Origin: Alphaproteobacteria bacterium
Lineage (GTDB): Bacteria > Pseudomonadota > Alphaproteobacteria > JAUHZY01
Reading direction: 5' to 3'
DNA: 64,000 nt
NCBI GenBank assembly: GCA_030425825.1
Contig: JAUHZY010000001.1
Span: 1,398,834-1,462,833, forward strand
Of the stretch, positions 52,314 through 60,645 are shown piece by piece (within the stretch, counting starts at the first letter, position 1; the number at the start of each line of letters is the position of its first letter). The translations under genes were made by a program, and so were the position numbers. The notes below the pieces were generated by a model. The model was given only the letters and a program-made list of their open reading frames with translations, was not told where the DNA came from and did no database searches.

Positions 52314-53429
52314 CTATGTATTTGGATTAGAGTTGGATGCTGAAAGCAACAGAAACGAGAATTGTTTCATATAAAGGACGTCATACTCTTGTTCGTCTTT
52401 GAAGAAGGCAATCATCTTCTTTTCGCCAGCAGTTAGGCTTTGGAAGCCTTCAGAGTCTTTTGTTATTTCTTGAACAAGGTCATCTATTTTTGCGTAAAGT
52501 TTCTGCATTACCTTTTCAAATTTTCGTCGTGCATGTTGACCGCCAATACCATGGAGAGCTTTTAATTCTTGTTTTTTTAGCTCCATAAGTTTTTGTACAT
52601 ACAAAGGAATGGCTGCGTGTTCATCTCTGATCTTTTGTAGATACTCAAGCGCAGCAGCACCATATATCGAACGCTGTTGTTCATCTGGTGTGACAGAAAG
52701 AAGATGTGACTTTTGGAACAACATTTTACTTGGCAGCTTCGCTTCAATATGTGCCTTAACAAGCTTTGTAAACAGGTCTGCCCAGATTTCTGCGTGCTTT
52801 CTTGCAGCCTCCTTTTCTTGCGACAGCCTTTCTTGTCCATATGTCCTTAGAATGTTTTCTGCAAACCTGAAAAGTCTTTTTTTGAAAAAAGGGAATTTGT
52901 TAGAGAACTGCGTGGCAAAGGATGTACATCTTTCGTCATAGTCTTTTTCAATAATTGATAAGAAATTCTTCTCAAGCTTTTCTTCAAGCATGTTTTCTTT
53001 ACCAAAATATTCGCCTGTTTTGATGTTGATAAAGTTATAAGCCTTGTCTAGGCAGTTTTTCATAATTGTTTCAAAGGGCTTTCGCTCTTTATACATGGGA
53101 AGCTTGGGGTCATCGAAGAAGTAATTTGCATCTAAACAAATTTTTTCTTGAGCAAAGATTGCATCGAGAATTTTTTCTTGAGCCTCTTCTTCTTTTCCTC
53201 CAAGCGCCTTCTCGACTTGTTTTTTCATTTCTGAGCGTTCGTAAACATAGTCGAAGTCATAATCGTGGTGTGATGCAAAGTCTTCGTCGCGGTATTTAAC
53301 GCCCATTTCTTCTAGCTTACATTCAATTTGGTAAATAATTGAGCTTTTATATCCCGCCTCAATAACAGGTTTATACTCTTGCAGGAGCGTGCGAAGTTCT
53401 TCAATTTTACCATCTTTGTTTTCTGACAT
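52314..53429 (-). CDS. Unknown cytoplasmic 371-aa protein (gene 5 of the unassigned cluster)
   Basis: I do not recognise this protein. It has no signal peptide or membrane helix, and is rich in Lys, Glu and aromatic residues. Two features stand out: the acidic aromatic stretch HHDYDFDYVYERSEM near residues 54-68 and the helical, coiled-coil-like C-terminal half (about 210-350). It starts 15 bases after the 1209-aa gene, so it belongs to the same transcript. In a cluster whose other members are exported it may be a cytoplasmic chaperone, regulator or ATPase partner, but no nucleotide motif is visible. The frame is long and clean, so it is surely coding. Confidence 0.8.
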   Translation of the reverse strand: MSENKDGKIEELRTLLQEYKPVIEAGYKSSIIYQIECKLEEMGVKYRDEDFASHHDYDFDYVYERSEMKKQVEKALGGKEEEAQEKILDAIFAQEKICLDANYFFDDPKLPMYKERKPFETIMKNCLDKAYNFINIKTGEYFGKENMLEEKLEKNFLSIIEKDYDERCTSFATQFSNKFPFFKKRLFRFAENILRTYGQERLSQEKEAARKHAEIWADLFTKLVKAHIEAKLPSKMLFQKSHLLSVTPDEQQRSIYGAAALEYLQKIRDEHAAIPLYVQKLMELKKQELKALHGIGGQHARRKFEKVMQKLYAKIDDLVQEITKDSEGFQSLTAGEKKMIAFFKDEQEYDVLYMKQFSFLLLSASNSNPNT

Positions 53430-53444
53430 GAAATCTCCCCTTGC

Positions 53445-56400
53445 TTAGGGCGTTTCAACAGGTTCACGTATGATATACGGAGGCAAGGGAGGCGGATCAA
53501 CCAGATGATCAAGAAGCTTTTCATTTACATTTCTTGCACAAGGGTTATCACGAACGGCTGTGTATGCTTCGTCGAACTCTTCCATGTATTCATTGAAGAG
53601 ATCTGTATCAAATATTTCTTCGCCTTCTGGCGCGTCAATTTGTGCCTGTCGCCATTCATAAAACTTTTCAAGCTCTTCATGTATTCTTTCTAAGGCCGGC
53701 CTGCTGGTTGGTGTTGAGCCACCACACCCTTCTGCAGTGAAGCTCGAGCGAATTTTTGCGTACTCTAATCCTTTAACAATAATGGCGAGCCTTTCTTTGT
53801 GCATTTGGTAGATACCAAAGAAGTTTGCAACAATCTTCATTGAGATCATGAAGTTTCTCATAATCACGATGAACATTCTAAAGGAGTCAAGTGCAATCGT
53901 CAGAGACCTTGCCAGCGTGAAGACCAGTTTTTCAAGAAGACCTTTTATGGTGTTTTTGGCTTTTGTGAATATATTGCCTGCGGAAGTCTGCCCTGCTGTT
54001 GCCCTAATTTTATTTGCAATACTGTTTTTCATTGTATTCCATACAACCTTGATGGCCTGCATGAACTGTCCCTGAAGAATATGAGAAATGGCAGACATTA
54101 CAGATAGAAAAACACCTTCTGCGCCATCTTTCGCTTCCTCAAGCTCGTCTCTTATGCTTGGCTTTACGTCAATGCCTGCTTCTTCAAGTTCGTCATAAAC
54201 ACTTTGAAGCACGGGTGACTTTAGGGTGTTTTTAACAATGTCAAAAAACCAGCCGAATGAAACAAACTTCTTCTGAGCAGCATCAATTTTTAAGGATATT
54301 TCTTCAATATCCTGACTAATTTGTTCAGGTGATGCGCCTGTTTCACAAGAAGCTGGCGTGAAGAGAGCATCATAGTTCTCATTAAAAGGTGTGATGCTTG
54401 TAAATTCTTTTGCAACATCTATTGTCAGATCTAGGAGAAGCTGGGGCATTTTCACGCCCGTACAAACAACGTCACGAATTTTGACAGATTCAGATGGTGG
54501 AAATGCTTCGCTTAAGACATTGTCTTGTTTTTTAATGTGGTCTTCAAGCTCTTCAAGTTCTTTTTTTGCCTTTTCTGGCTTCTCGTCTTCAATGTGGGCC
54601 GCAGCAGTGTCTAAGAAATCATTTGAATCAGGCGCATATTCTGAAATAACAAGAACTAGAACATCTTCTGCAAGCACATCCATCAAGCTCTGGACATTTG
54701 CTTTTTGCTCTGCATTAAAGGCATCCTTACCGTCTTTCTCGCGCGCAATGGCAAGATCAATTTCATTCATAACAAAGTCAAGTGAGGTGAGAGCTTTGTT
54801 GATGTCTACCTCGATTTCTTCTCTGTTGCGGTACATTGACTTGATGATTTCGTGCGCGGCGCCTTCAACAAGGTCTTCCAGAGAAACCTCTGTGACGTTG
54901 ACGATGTAGAGGTTCATAACTTCTTTAGCAAGGTTTTCAAAAAAGGTGTTTGCAGACTCATCCATTTTCTCAAGTGTTATTTTTGCGGCTTCTGAGTCTG
55001 ACATTGTAAAAATAGGACGCTTTACTAAAAGCGATTGCTCATAATTTAGGCCGCTAATGGCAAATGTAAGGGGATCGAGTTTCTTGCGCCAGTGAATAGA
55101 CCTGTCGCGAACAGCATCTTCTAGTGCAATTACCGAGTCTGTTTCTAGAAGCGGAACCTCCCACTCCAGGGATGATGCATCAATCCCACGTAAAACTTCT
55201 TCCACTAATAAGTCTGAGTTGTCAGAAGACATTTTTGCAGGGTTTGAGACATTTGGCAGTTTTCCACAGGCTGTAATTTTACTGTAACACTCTTTAAGGC
55301 CACCTTCTGGTTTGATCGCACAGGGAGATAAGTCTGTTTTTTGTGCCTTTTTTTCTTCGTCAAAGCACCAATCTGGTGTTTTGCTTGCCTCTTTACACGC
55401 CCTTCTTTCTTCATAGCATGTGCTATGGAGGCCAAATGCTGGGTCAATCTGTGCTTTTAGAACAAGGTCAGAGTTACAACTCATTGGCGAGAGATTCAAA
55501 AGCATATTCAGAGACCCTGTTAGTTGGGGGAACTCTGGTAGGTAGCCAGGGTCAAAAAGGTCTTTGAAGTCATAAGATGCTTCCAGAGGGTATGGTAATG
55601 AATAAAAGCCCTCCCTTGCATAAATACATGCATTATGCAGGTTTGCGATAATATCTGCTTGTTCTTGAAGGCGTGTCAATTGAGCTTCTGGTGAAATGCT
55701 ATTGTTGGTGTTGGTCTTTTTTTCTGTGAAGGCTGGATTGCGAATAAGAGTGCTTGTTGGTGGAGCTTCATCTGTTTGTCTCGTTGGTGTCGGCGGCGCT
55801 GTTGACGAAGACGTTGTTGTTGGCGGTGTTGTTGATGTTGTTGATCTTGATGTCGGCGTCGTTGACGGGGGGGTAGATGTTGTGTCTTGTGATGTAATAG
55901 AAAAATCTCTTCCTGAAAGATTCGGCCCAGAAGTGTTTGGGGTACTCTCTGTCTCGCTGGATTGAAGACTTTGAGTGCTTTCCTCTTTTGATGAGAACTG
56001 CTTTTGCCAGGCATTACGCAAGCGACCAACAAGGCTTGTATCCTCAGTTGATTCAACTTGAGATCCGGGTGTGTCACCAACAGTATTGAGTTGTGACGTG
56101 CCTGAGTCTCTTTCGCCTATGCCCGCAGACCCTGCGCCAGCATTGCCGCCTTGTGTAGACAAGCTACGCGCTTGGTCCGCTCTTGTGCCAATTTGCTCAG
56201 AGCTTTCATTCGTTGCTTGCCCAGCACTTGTTTGTGCTTCGGTAGAGCTTTGTCCAAACGTTCCTTTCGGGACTTGTCGCCCTTCTGACTCGGTTGACTG
56301 ACCAGGGATGCCAGGAACTGTAAGGGTCGTATCAGGGTCGCTTGTTTCTGGCTGTGCTTGACCTGTTGTTGTGCTTTCATTTTGTCTTGCTCGTTCTGGG

Positions 56401-57074
56401 TCTTGCTCACCAATACTTGTTCCTGTTGGGCTTCTTTGGGTGTTTGCTGTTGTTGACTCAGAGGGTGTCTCGCTTTGTCCTGAAGCTGTTGTTTCTGGTG
56501 TATTTCGTTCATCTTGAGGGCCGCTTGCTGTGTTAAGTTGAGAGTCCGGTGTTCCTTCGCCAGAAGTGCTGCCATCTGTGTTGTTGTCTTCGGAGGCATT
56601 TTGTTCTTCCTGACCTTCGGCTTCGTCCATCCCTTCGTCTCTTTGATCTTCGTCAGACTCAAACTTTAGAATAATAGCACCCTTAACAGACCCATTTGTA
56701 CCATCACCGATAGTATCGTTAAGTGTTAAGGTCATCGCCTCACTCATTGAAACGACTGCTGCAGCAAGCTTGCGATCCCTAAAAAGGGCAGCAGGAGACT
56801 TTTGTTTTTTCTTCATCCCTTTTGACTGTCTTGCGGGAACTAAGCGTACATCTGGGATTTTTAGGCCTGCTTTTTCAAGAAATTCAGATAAAAAGTTTGT
56901 TGAAGATCCATGAATTGCAATAGCTTTCCCTTTCAGGGCTTGAGGGCTCGAAGCTGCTTTTTTAAGGGCAACAATAGCAAACCCACTCTCTTGAGCGTGC
57001 ACAGAAACGGGAGCGTTCAAAAGAACGACTGCAAGAAGAACAAAAAGATGGTGTATTATTCTTATTTTCATCAT
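53445..57074 (-). CDS. Unknown 1209-aa exported multidomain protein (gene 4)
   Basis: A signal peptide (residues 1-27, VHA cleavage) is followed by a lobe at about 31-137 that reads like the second half of NMT1/TauA-type substrate-binding proteins (LKGKAIAIHGSS, FLEKAGL, GSVKGAIIL). Residues about 138-465 form a low-complexity acidic, then Ser/Thr/Gln/Gly/Pro-rich linker. Residues 483-603 hold eight cysteines (483, 533, 553, 560, 570, 585, 596, 603), followed by a long helical region with four more. A hydrophobic segment lies near 1052-1090 and a proline-rich tail ends the protein. Its ATG overlaps gene 3 by 4 bases. It looks like a surface or envelope scaffold; the function is unknown. Confidence 0.85.
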   Translation of the reverse strand: MMKIRIIHHLFVLLAVVLLNAPVSVHAQESGFAIVALKKAASSPQALKGKAIAIHGSSTNFLSEFLEKAGLKIPDVRLVPARQSKGMKKKQKSPAALFRDRKLAAAVVSMSEAMTLTLNDTIGDGTNGSVKGAIILKFESDEDQRDEGMDEAEGQEEQNASEDNNTDGSTSGEGTPDSQLNTASGPQDERNTPETTASGQSETPSESTTANTQRSPTGTSIGEQDPERARQNESTTTGQAQPETSDPDTTLTVPGIPGQSTESEGRQVPKGTFGQSSTEAQTSAGQATNESSEQIGTRADQARSLSTQGGNAGAGSAGIGERDSGTSQLNTVGDTPGSQVESTEDTSLVGRLRNAWQKQFSSKEESTQSLQSSETESTPNTSGPNLSGRDFSITSQDTTSTPPSTTPTSRSTTSTTPPTTTSSSTAPPTPTRQTDEAPPTSTLIRNPAFTEKKTNTNNSISPEAQLTRLQEQADIIANLHNACIYAREGFYSLPYPLEASYDFKDLFDPGYLPEFPQLTGSLNMLLNLSPMSCNSDLVLKAQIDPAFGLHSTCYEERRACKEASKTPDWCFDEEKKAQKTDLSPCAIKPEGGLKECYSKITACGKLPNVSNPAKMSSDNSDLLVEEVLRGIDASSLEWEVPLLETDSVIALEDAVRDRSIHWRKKLDPLTFAISGLNYEQSLLVKRPIFTMSDSEAAKITLEKMDESANTFFENLAKEVMNLYIVNVTEVSLEDLVEGAAHEIIKSMYRNREEIEVDINKALTSLDFVMNEIDLAIAREKDGKDAFNAEQKANVQSLMDVLAEDVLVLVISEYAPDSNDFLDTAAAHIEDEKPEKAKKELEELEDHIKKQDNVLSEAFPPSESVKIRDVVCTGVKMPQLLLDLTIDVAKEFTSITPFNENYDALFTPASCETGASPEQISQDIEEISLKIDAAQKKFVSFGWFFDIVKNTLKSPVLQSVYDELEEAGIDVKPSIRDELEEAKDGAEGVFLSVMSAISHILQGQFMQAIKVVWNTMKNSIANKIRATAGQTSAGNIFTKAKNTIKGLLEKLVFTLARSLTIALDSFRMFIVIMRNFMISMKIVANFFGIYQMHKERLAIIVKGLEYAKIRSSFTAEGCGGSTPTSRPALERIHEELEKFYEWRQAQIDAPEGEEIFDTDLFNEYMEEFDEAYTAVRDNPCARNVNEKLLDHLVDPPPLPPYIIREPVETP

Positions 57075-58159
57075 TGTAACCCTAAAATATTTTTACCATT
57101 GTCGGGCTTTTTATCAAAACCAATATTGTATTTATTGCTGCTTGTCATTTCTCGTGCATTCATAAATGACACCCTTGCCGCTTCTGTGACTGCTGCGTTT
57201 ATTTTCTGAGCATTTTTTAATCTTTGAAGAGCAATGAGATAGTGCGTCAAAGTTCTAACGGTAACTTGTCGCTTGCCTTTAATATTCAGGTTGTCCATTA
57301 GCCGACTTAATTCACCAAAAAGACCTGCAAATTCTGTTGCCATTCCTGCGTTTTCACCAAGCTTATTAAAGAAACCGCCCATATCTTCACGATCACCTTC
57401 CGCAACACCATTTACACTTCCAAGAATGCCGTCAATCTTCTGTGGGTCATTAACGCCGTTTTCCTTAAGAAATGCGGTTTGTTCATCGACGGAGCCGTTG
57501 AACAGATTGTTAAAGTCACCAGTGTTTTCTTGTGAAAGAAAATCAACCATATCTTTGTTGCTTGTTGGATCATCAGCCCATTCTTGTAGTTTTGTTGCAG
57601 GTTTTGCGTATGCATCACCGCTTTTACCAGAGATTCCGCCAACTATTTTCGAGATGGGGTTACTTACAGGCATGGCCTTTTCAGCCGAAGAGGCAAGCCA
57701 ATCCAGGTTCTTGTAGCTCGCTTCGATCAGGCCATTTGCAAGGTGAATATTTCTTAAGGCAAGCTCGTTATTAATTGCTACAACGTCTTTTTCGATCTGG
57801 TCTTTCATGATCTCTTTGTTTGTTGTCCTTGCCTGTGGCATTTTAATGGGTGCAAACATGCTTTTATCTAGTGTAATAGGACTTTGTCCCGGGCCGTCAT
57901 CTTCTCCCAGAGGGCCTGGACCACCAATGGCTGCAAGTGTTTCTTCGACCTCTTCGTTGGAGATTTCCTTTTCTTTGTTTGTCTCGTTTGCAACTTCTGC
58001 CTGATACTCTGTTTGCAAGATTCCCAAAGAATCAACGAGGGAGCAAAGGGGAATGGCAAAAGGCATTGGAACATAAAAGTTACAGGTAATGATAGCATTT
58101 GCACGCTGAGGTGCTAGAAGCAAGCAAACTGTAAAGAGTAGAACTAAAGGCTTTCTCAT
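57071..58159 (-). CDS. Unknown 362-aa exported protein (gene 3)
   Basis: A signal peptide (residues 1-22, cleavage after ANA) precedes a short hydrophobic segment with Cys26 and Cys39 (ITCNFYVPMPFAIPLCS), which could pair. The rest is mostly helical, acidic and Gly/Asn-rich, with an amphipathic C-terminal helix (about 305-340, LTHYLIALQRLKNAQKINAAVTEAARVSF). It overlaps genes 2 and 4 by 4 bases at each end, so it is translationally coupled with both. I know no family. Confidence 0.82.
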   Translation of the reverse strand: MRKPLVLLFTVCLLLAPQRANAIITCNFYVPMPFAIPLCSLVDSLGILQTEYQAEVANETNKEKEISNEEVEETLAAIGGPGPLGEDDGPGQSPITLDKSMFAPIKMPQARTTNKEIMKDQIEKDVVAINNELALRNIHLANGLIEASYKNLDWLASSAEKAMPVSNPISKIVGGISGKSGDAYAKPATKLQEWADDPTSNKDMVDFLSQENTGDFNNLFNGSVDEQTAFLKENGVNDPQKIDGILGSVNGVAEGDREDMGGFFNKLGENAGMATEFAGLFGELSRLMDNLNIKGKRQVTVRTLTHYLIALQRLKNAQKINAAVTEAARVSFMNAREMTSSNKYNIGFDKKPDNGKNILGLQ

Positions 58160-59247
58160 TTTTTAGCCTCTTTTCGTTCTGCAAAACTTTGACCCCAATT
58201 CTTATTTGGTTTCGGCACGACCTCTGTATAGAGCATGTGCAGTTGTGGATAGGGTAGCCAGGCTCTTGCAACTTGTACTTGGAGTTTTGGCTTGTTTTCT
58301 AGGTATTTTGCCAGTTTTTCGATGCGATCTGGGTGTTGTGCTAAAATATGAGGGTTTTGGGCAATAAGCTCTGGTGCATGAGCAAAAAGATCGGGGTTCT
58401 TCTCAAAAAAAGAAGGATTTTCTTTGAAAAATCCAGCAAAAAAAGTCTTTTTATCAATAACTTGACCTTCTGAATTAAGGTACAGGGGCGCCTTGGTTAC
58501 TTCTTTTGTCGAGACTGACCCAGCTTTTGCAGTAAAAAGAGGTGCTGTATAGCGTCCCCACTTTTGAATACCAGAAAGTTTTTCGATAAGCAGTACATTA
58601 TTTTGGCCTGTAAGGCTCGTCGCATATTCTGACTCTTTCCGCCTTCCTTCCATATCTCTTACATCTGCACCATTTGAAATATCTTCTCCAAGCTCTTGAG
58701 CTATTCTTAAGGCATCTTTTGAGGTCTCATCTTTTTTCTTTTGGCGTGACTTTGTAAGGTTTGCAATCATGTTTTCATGTGATCCTGACCCTTGTGGCCC
58801 AAATTCGCCAATTCTTTTCCCAAAGGCGGACCCAGAAACACTGCCAAGAGAGTAAAAGTAGTTTTGTGTCATTTGTAACTTACCAGTTTCCGAGCAATTA
58901 ATAACCGTTGACCCTGAAAACCTAGGGAATTGGAAATTTATATTTCCGTCCAATTGAGGAAGACAATTTGAAAGATCTGCATTTATGTTGCCACTTAAAA
59001 TGCTGCCTGCTGTTGAAAGAAGAACAGTTTTCCACTTGTCATCTTTTAAAGCTCTTTCCAGGCGTCTTGCGTTGCGTTCTTCCTTATAGCCTTCAATTTG
59101 CTCATTTAATTTCTTGAGAGACATTCTTAGCTCTCTAATGACCTTTGTTAAGTCTGTTGTCACATTAAAGTTTGCGTAAGCTTGTTGCTTTGGCGAAAGC
59201 GATACCATCATAATAACAAGCAGGGTGAATATAAAAAAGTGCTTCAA
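58156..59247 (-). CDS. Unknown 363-aa exported protein, paralogue of gene 1 (gene 2)
   Basis: It has a signal peptide (about residues 1-25). A helical segment (29-75) then leads to a conserved block with Cys95 and Cys118 around NCLP, SETGKLQ, TQNYFYS and GSVSGSA. A polar helical region follows, then five heptad repeats (277-311) and the ending RAWLPYPQLHMLYTEVVP. The block, the repeats and the ending all match the neighbouring 440-aa protein, so the two genes arose by duplication. It is 12 bases after gene 1 and overlaps gene 3. A VirB5/TrbJ-like role is only a weak guess. Confidence 0.83.
   Translation of the reverse strand: MKHFFIFTLLVIMMVSLSPKQQAYANFNVTTDLTKVIRELRMSLKKLNEQIEGYKEERNARRLERALKDDKWKTVLLSTAGSILSGNINADLSNCLPQLDGNINFQFPRFSGSTVINCSETGKLQMTQNYFYSLGSVSGSAFGKRIGEFGPQGSGSHENMIANLTKSRQKKKDETSKDALRIAQELGEDISNGADVRDMEGRRKESEYATSLTGQNNVLLIEKLSGIQKWGRYTAPLFTAKAGSVSTKEVTKAPLYLNSEGQVIDKKTFFAGFFKENPSFFEKNPDLFAHAPELIAQNPHILAQHPDRIEKLAKYLENKPKLQVQVARAWLPYPQLHMLYTEVVPKPNKNWGQSFAERKEAKK
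58315..58419 (-). repeat. Heptad proline repeats in gene 2
   Basis: Residues 277-311 read as five consecutive 7-residue units with proline second and Leu/Ile/Phe fourth or fifth: NPSFFEK, NPDLFAH, APELIAQ, NPHILAQ, HPDRIEK. The DNA itself is not an exact repeat, so the pattern is kept by selection or is ancient. Confidence 0.75.
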
Positions 59248-59259
59248 AACAACTCCTGT

Positions 59260-60582
59260 TTATTTAAGCAGCATAGAGAAAATCTTTTTCGCGCGATCTG
59301 CAAACTTCTTTTCAGGTGTTTCTGGCGGAACGATTTCTGCGAAAAGTGTGTGAAGCTCTGGCGCGTTCCTCCATGCCTCCGCAAGCATGATCTTTTTTTC
59401 AGGATAGTCATCTAAATAGATTGCCATCTTTTTCTTTGCAATAGGTTCATTGTCCAAGATGTTTGGGTTGTGAACAAGAATATATGGTGATTCGATAAGA
59501 AGGTCAGGAAACTCAATAAACAACCTTGGATCGTGCGCATAAATTTTTTGAAGGTATTCTGCAGCCGTTACAGGCTGAAGGTTACTGGCAATGAAAAGAG
59601 GTGCTTCATTATTAATATATTGCATTGCCTCAAACCTTAACAGGTGACTGTCGGCGATCTGTTTTTGAGCAAGTGTTGTGTTTGCAATACTTTCCGTCAG
59701 GACAAGATTGTATTGCAGGTTAGTGAGGGCATTTGTTTCTTCCAAAGAGTCCACAATGTCCGCTGTGCTTTTAAGTGCGTGAGTCGCATTTGCTGCAATT
59801 TCACCCGATGCGCCATAAAGCTCTCTGTTTGAGTCTGCAAGCGCTTTAGCGCGCTCTTTGCGTAGAGCATCTTGATATTCTTCAACGCTTCTTCTTGCCA
59901 GTCCAAAATTGGCCACTTGATGGATCCAAAGGCTTTGTTCTCCACAGTTTTCACAAGATGCCATCTGCATTTTTGGATCATCAGGAAGCGATCTTAGGTG
60001 CGCGATAGATTTGCGGTCTAGTTCTGTTAGGGGCCCATAAAACATGCCTGACTGCTTCCCAATGGGTGTGTCCAGCGTGCCACTGCCGCTGCCTGCGCAC
60101 CCTCCACCACTTTCATTAAGGCCTTTACCATCGACGGTTGCTGTTGCGCTTCCGTTTACACATCCTGCGTTATAAAAGTAGTTTTGTTGAAGTCTTAATT
60201 TGCCAGGCTCAGAACAATAAAGAGTCGTATTCCCGCTGAGAAGTTTGTCAAAATTAATGTTAAGATTTCCATTAATGTTAATTCTTGGGAGGCAGTTTGC
60301 AAGGTCTACCATTGCATTGCCTGAAGCAATGGATCCGACAGTAGCCAGCACGCGTTGCAAGCCTTTGCGGTCTTCAATAGCGCCATGTATTTGTTTGTTT
60401 GTTTCTTTGATCTTTGTTGCTGTTGCTTTGATTGTTGTGACAAGGCCACTTTGTTTCAGTTCTTCTATAAAGTTTGGCGTGTCAAAGTTAACAATTTGCG
60501 CGCTGGCTTGGTTGGTTATTGCAAGACAAAAGATAGCCAGGGTAGTAGCAGCAAGTGCAGAAAGCGAGATTGACTTTTTCAT
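59260..60582 (-). CDS. Unknown 440-aa exported protein, paralogue of gene 2 (gene 1)
   Basis: A signal peptide (residues 1-29, cleavage after ASA) is followed by a helical N-terminal region and the shared block with Cys97 and Cys123 (ANCLPRI, CSEPGKLRL, QNYFYNAGC). Extra cysteines at 141, 162, 210 and 213 are absent from its paralogue. A long amphipathic helical stretch (about 290-340, SLEETNALTNLQYNLVLTES) recalls VirB5/TrbJ-type pilus-tip proteins. Five proline heptads (351-385) and the ending EAWRNAPELHTLFAEIVP follow. It is the first gene after its own promoter. Confidence 0.83.
   Translation of the reverse strand: MKKSISLSALAATTLAIFCLAITNQASAQIVNFDTPNFIEELKQSGLVTTIKATATKIKETNKQIHGAIEDRKGLQRVLATVGSIASGNAMVDLANCLPRININGNLNINFDKLLSGNTTLYCSEPGKLRLQQNYFYNAGCVNGSATATVDGKGLNESGGGCAGSGSGTLDTPIGKQSGMFYGPLTELDRKSIAHLRSLPDDPKMQMASCENCGEQSLWIHQVANFGLARRSVEEYQDALRKERAKALADSNRELYGASGEIAANATHALKSTADIVDSLEETNALTNLQYNLVLTESIANTTLAQKQIADSHLLRFEAMQYINNEAPLFIASNLQPVTAAEYLQKIYAHDPRLFIEFPDLLIESPYILVHNPNILDNEPIAKKKMAIYLDDYPEKKIMLAEAWRNAPELHTLFAEIVPPETPEKKFADRAKKIFSMLLK
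59428..59532 (-). repeat. Heptad proline repeats in gene 1
   Basis: Residues 351-385 read as five 7-residue units: DPRLFIE, FPDLLIE, SPYILVH, NPNILDN, EPIAKKK. Number, length and position match the block in gene 2 while the residues differ widely. Confidence 0.75.
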
Positions 60583-60615: not shown

Positions 60616-60645
60616 ATTATACCATGCATTAAAGGGTAAGGTCAA
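60616..60645 (-). promoter_or_regulatory. Sigma-70-type promoter of the unassigned five-gene cluster
   Basis: On the minus strand TTGACC (60640-60645) and a perfect TATAAT (60616-60621) are 18 bases apart, with the start of transcription expected near 60609. The -35 element overlaps the hda stop codon. It gives the cluster an independent transcript although it lies only 59 bases from hda. Confidence 0.75.

Follow-up and report, generated by a model that had tools for sequence, protein, structure and literature searches.

A four-gene exported module between hda and mdh as a probable displaced VirB5-like part of an alphaproteobacterial type IV secretion system

Analysis of a 64,000-nucleotide stretch of DNA (the window) from an alphaproteobacterium with a 1.95-Mb genome suggested that the first four genes of a five-gene cluster probably form a VirB5-like extracytoplasmic module, now displaced, that belongs to the host's own chromosomal type IV secretion system (T4SS) of the virB type. 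What is proposed, with the same degree of confidence, is that these genes work like the modules found next to VirB4 in other alphaproteobacteria, and not that they are members of the VirB5 family. The module would have moved from the place between virB4 and virB7/8 to the junction of hda and mdh.

The five genes lie on the minus strand in the order P5, P4, P3, P2 and P1. Gene 1 (P5, 59260..60582, 440 aa), the VirB5-like candidate, and gene 2 (P4, 58156..59247, 363 aa, with a TTG start) encode paralogues predicted to be exported; gene 3 (P3, 57071..58159, 362 aa) encodes a predicted exported and mostly helical protein, gene 4 (P2, 53445..57074, 1209 aa) a giant protein also predicted to be exported, and gene 5 (P1, 52314..53429, 371 aa) a cytoplasmic, helical-looking protein of no recognised family. 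The gaps between them are 12, -4, -4 and 15 bases, and at both overlaps (genes 2/3 and 3/4) an ATGA places the start codon over the preceding stop. The coordinates, strand, lengths and spacing agree with those of a preliminary description of the cluster, as does its division into exported and cytoplasmic products, with a hydrophobic N-terminal core found by hydropathy in genes 1-4 only. That description had also placed a near-consensus promoter before gene 1, and a sigma-70-like site with an extended -10 (TG) was found there on the minus strand (TTGACC-N18-TATAAT, 60616..60645). This site lies 33 bases ahead of gene 1, overlaps the hda stop, and matches the consensus at 11 of 12 positions, a level expected by chance 0.12 times per 9 kb in a first-order simulation; it is the sole site so good in the 64 kb. 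Neither between the five genes nor before mdh was a minus-strand terminator-like site found, and two terminator-like matches within gene 4 were at chance level. Common transcription of the five genes is plausible. The search of Rfam gave no match, and no promoter motif common to the cluster and the T4SS operons was found.

The cluster is flanked by housekeeping genes, hda 59 bases upstream and the likely mdh start 98 bases downstream. Hda is not adjacent to mdh in the relatives examined, which would suit an origin of the cluster from a mobile element that entered between the two genes and left it as remnant or cargo. This origin is disfavoured and appears very improbable: GC3 and codon use of the cluster are typical of the host genome, which argues that it is resident DNA, the coupled ORFs are intact, no phage family was found among the five proteins, and searches of genome contigs, plasmids and IMG/VR gave no match to the cluster. 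The 57 relatives drawn for comparison belong to the same class only, apparently none of them to the order of the host, and the malate dehydrogenase of the host is at most 76% identical to those of the relatives found.

None of the five proteins, which the preliminary description had not recognised, reached any family cut-off in Pfam, NCBIfam or PHROGs, and no known system gave strong profile matches to the whole set. When genes 1/2 and a concatenate of the five genes were searched against 385 alphaproteobacterial genomes, only the cluster itself and weak matches were returned; four of the latter were set aside as chance matches (MurD in L009, an alanine dehydrogenase-like protein in L012, a UDP-sugar dehydrogenase in L306 and a PAS kinase in L005). 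The PDB sequence search returned nothing meaningful.

The paralogy of P5 and P4 (BLASTP 8e-35), which had been overlooked before, extends to a common Cys pair and to proline heptads that align. The paired cysteines and heptads had been listed as shared features and both are real, the heptads lying at the C-termini of genes 1 and 2: those of P5 (59431..59532, minus strand, residues 351-384) lie in a small helical C-terminal domain, and those of P4 are at 58315..58419 (minus strand, residues 277-311). The P5 domain, with an AF2 pLDDT of about 78 over residues 339-423, is the sole confidently folded part; the mean pLDDT was 37-40 for P5 together with P4 and for P3, structure prediction being uninformative because there was no alignment. 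A Foldseek search with the low-confidence P5 model gave no match, and P3 is helical in its low-confidence AF2 model. Mature P3 carries the N-terminal motif CNFYVPMPFAIPLC (C...P.C; 58043..58084, minus strand). Of 227 signal-peptide-like proteins in the genome, 2 have this pattern, the other being LpxK-like, so that P3 alone is both clearly exported and marked by the motif at the N-terminus; among VirB4-adjacent exported proteins it is present in 8 of 59.

P2 is modular, with a signal peptide, a domain near the N-terminus that looks like a single lobe of substrate-binding proteins of the NMT1/THI5 type (56625..56990), a low-complexity linker rich in Ser, Thr, Pro, Gln and Glu (about 300 residues, 55710..56639, assigned from the sequence), and a Cys-rich and helical region in which no strong transmembrane helix is present (53445..55709), all on the minus strand. 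Its sole family match is PF09084 (17.9 bits, below the cut-off of 20.5; E 0.003), which spans residues about 33-84 and thus covers part of one lobe and not both; P2 also differs from that substrate-binding family in that the lobe is fused to a giant protein. The sub-threshold match in P2, the lack of family matches in general, the solitary position of the cluster behind its own promoter-like site and the lack of detectable homologues in the 385 genomes would suit the main rival explanation, in which the cluster encodes a lineage-specific structure at the surface or in the periplasm (an adhesin or a nutrient-scavenging device) that is independent of and unrelated to the T4SS, with the P2 lobe binding a ligand and P5, P4 and P3 serving as the anchor. 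We regard this explanation as rather unlikely, since the shared gene plan, the ranking in the profile comparisons and the P3 motif would go unexplained, and the chromosomal T4SS would have no VirB5-like gene at all.

The gene plan was found at VirB4 loci of other alphaproteobacteria. A VirB4 of the chromosomal type of the host (contig C5) was present in 37 of 385 sampled alphaproteobacteria, host genome included. Most of the VirB4 loci read contain two to six consecutive same-strand exported proteins between VirB4 and VirB7/VirB8, the last of which is often giant (600-1400 aa); the proteins are of 226, 236, 262, 268 and 649 aa in L298 and of 363, 230, 583 and 1281 aa in L302. The cluster follows the same plan, namely an exported protein, an exported paralogue, an exported protein with C...P.C and a giant exported protein in the last place. 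This stretch between VirB4 and VirB7/8 is missing from the chromosomal locus of the host; L287 and L305 also have no such exported genes after VirB4, so that a displacement would not be unique to the host. Several of the VirB4-adjacent proteins are VirB5-like: one in L309 passes PF07996 (30.3 bits, cut-off 24.7), L302 weakly matches TIGR02791 (5e-4), L295 and L302 match DUF4141 weakly, and the L309 VirB5 can be aligned with the CPxC family over almost its whole length (195 columns; P 3e-5). On an Erythrobacter aureus plasmid (NZ_CP031358.1), a VirB5 above the Pfam cut-off stands in the VirB4-adjacent place.

Profile comparison was used to relate the cluster to these proteins. The best hhalign match of P5, above all controls, was the VirB4-adjacent family of L252 (310 aa) and L292 (403 aa). 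After the signal peptides had been cut off, the profile of P4/P5 scored 30.8 against L252/L292, in comparison to 14.4 +/- 2.9 (maximum 25.5) for 110 signal-peptide-like proteins of the same genome. The hhalign probability of P4/P5 was 75% with signal peptides and fell to 12% once they were trimmed, and only the trimmed figure was relied on. In the reverse test with the L252/L292 profile, P2, P4/P5 and P5 ranked first, second and third of 116, the top-ranking P2 match being to its C-terminal part. P2 was supported by one of the eight VirB4-adjacent families used as queries; the seven further queries ranked the window proteins inconsistently, and P3 showed no profile similarity to VirB4-adjacent families. 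A general VirB5-type profile did not separate P4/P5 from controls, and it is weakly informative because several syntenic members fail it too. The L252 310-aa protein gave no match in plasmids. These results give statistical support to a relationship of P5/P4 and P2 with VirB4-adjacent proteins, mainly the L252/L292 family, and the P3 motif is likewise supported by its counts; gene by gene the sequence evidence is weak, and the link rests largely on genome organisation.

The cluster genes also resemble the VirB4-adjacent genes of L252, L292, L295, L298, L301 and L302 in number, order and size pattern, often with a giant last gene, in the Cys-Pro N-terminus and, weakly, in the profiles of P5/P4 and P2, but differ in that the latter stand inside a T4SS operon and that the sequences have diverged almost beyond recognition. 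With the VirB5 pilus-tip family (PF07996, TIGR02791; A. tumefaciens VirB5 and R388 TrwJ) they share a predicted export, a helical look, equivalents placed directly after virB4 in related operons, and a host machine otherwise lacking VirB5. They are not filed as VirB5 because no significant match to the family models was found and none of them directly follows virB4, roughly 200 kb separating the cluster from the T4SS locus; in addition, there are four genes instead of one, and one of them is of 1209 aa.

Two VirB4 genes were found in the host genome, one on the chromosome (C5) and one on a plasmid-like contig (C11). At the chromosomal locus, VirB3, VirB4, VirB8, VirB9 and a secretin are encoded at C5:946-7648, with a 64-aa VirB7-like lipoprotein between VirB4 and VirB8; VirB10 and VirB11 lie at C2:1654986-1657839 and VirD4 at C2:1657853-1660579. 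VirB7, VirB2 and VirD4 were identified by homology to relatives, and VirB3 by a sub-threshold Pfam match together with homology. The right end of C2 and the left end of C5 both break inside the Glu-Ala repeat of one T4SS-linked gene, so the two contigs are neighbours and these T4SS genes form one contiguous locus. Nine VirB2-like pilin genes are scattered in the genome, six in tandem at C2:1162698-1165625, two at C2:1479490-1480387 and one at C2:1538234-1538656, three of them recognised by homology and the others by neighbourhood and a plan of signal peptide and two helices. The tandem of six adjoins an XRE-type regulator, which in L290 and L292 likewise stands next to VirB2/VirB3. The genome thus encodes VirB3, 4, 7, 8, 9, 10, 11 and D4 together with VirB2 pilins. 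No VirB5-like gene is present within the chromosomal locus; PF07996 (VirB5) has no match in the readable genome, which excludes C2:512001-584000 (72 kb that read N and could hold a real VirB5-like module), and PF04610 (VirB6) matches only C11, leaving the chromosomal machine without a recognisable VirB6.

The preliminary description had taken the cluster to encode an assembly of several proteins in the envelope or at the surface, organised much like secretion or pilus operons but with no ATPase, pilin or channel in view. The direction of that reading holds, since genes of the same plan sit inside T4SS operons of other alphaproteobacteria, and the three components are indeed lacking within the cluster. 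Genes for all three lie at other sites of the host genome (C5:1-7648, C2:1654986-1662365 and the nine VirB2-like genes), so the cluster is probably not self-contained. That the cluster is by itself a complete system for secretion or pilus formation, so far unrecognised, would fit the operon organisation and the exported proteins, but is highly improbable: neither the cluster nor any adjacent gene that could serve it encodes an ATPase, a pilin, a secretin or a multi-spanning protein, and housekeeping genes lie on its flanks; compared with a type IV pilus/T2SS operon, the cluster has no ATPase, GspF-like or pilin genes.

VirB5 is located at the pilus tip, forms a pentamer on VirB6 and nucleates VirB2 pili (PMC12857230), and the mechanism suggested for the displaced module follows by analogy with that literature. 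P5, P4, P3 and P2 would be exported by Sec, their Cys pairs would form periplasmic disulfides, and the four proteins would assemble on the VirB3/VirB4 inner-membrane platform as a stalk or pilus tip, on which VirB2-type pilins would build and which would pass the outer-membrane complex of VirB7/9/10 and secretin. P2 probably reaches outward, with its NMT1-like lobe on the long flexible linker and the Cys-rich helical base as holder, and the lobe would touch the target cell or a ligand; P1 may be a cytoplasmic helper or a substrate. The assembly, the surface exposure and the role of P1 are what we infer from this analogy. It is tentatively conceivable that the host represents a T4SS class lacking VirB6, in which an expanded VirB5-like exported set and a giant protein with a substrate-binding-protein-like lobe replace the VirB5/VirB6 stalk and leave through a VirB9-secretin outer pore, the module being a free-standing operon here.

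If the assignment is true, four orphan genes would be given to a machine, a T4SS could be spread over the chromosome, and the host would provide a test case for stalk and pilus building in a T4SS without a recognisable VirB6. Because the outer parts of T4SS evolve very rapidly, they escape family models, and many T4SS look incomplete for this reason; a missing part may be located by operon order in distant relatives together with what the genome lacks. Expanded VirB6 proteins are carried by the rvh T4SS of Rickettsiales, in comparison to which the host has no VirB6 family match outside C11 and does have a secretin. What the two have in common is that the rvh system, too, is an anomalous T4SS of alphaproteobacteria, unlike the vir archetype of Agrobacterium (PMC2653234). 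The E. aureus plasmid T4SS has the order VirB2-3-4-VirB5-large protein-small lipoprotein-VirB8-9-10-11-D4 and differs in being a compact operon of the conjugative type, in which a single VirB5 can be recognised and the annotation of the stretch shows no secretin.

Clusters in L252, L253 and L260 join VirB8-VirB9 to a secretin, a GspE-type ATPase and a GspF-like protein, VirB3-VirB4 being present as well in L252 and L290 and pilin-like genes in L252; those of L252, L253 and L260 are apparent T4SS/type IV pilus hybrids. A literature search found no paper on an alphaproteobacterial T4SS combining VirB4, secretin and GspE or on a Micavibrio T4SS with secretin, so this wider T4SS class may be undescribed, the search being limited and absence of a paper not being proof. 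Because relatives have GspE/GspF beside the secretin, a hybrid was also considered for the present genome and rejected, as the contig junction falls inside one gene and the readable genome holds no GspE homologue beyond VirB11-type ATPases. A 3532-aa ORF (C2:497613-508211) just precedes the N stretch of C2. The second T4SS of the genome (C11:8422-19343) has VirB4, VirB6 and VirB8-11-like genes, and the same contig carries a ParA-like gene and a gene that is VirB5-like by position and appearance. The VirB10 homologue (C2:1654986-1656725) has a lipoprotein-like signal and an Ig-like/DUF1573 stretch, and two nearly identical lipoprotein-like genes of 414 and 426 aa lie in tandem at C2:1107212-1109825.
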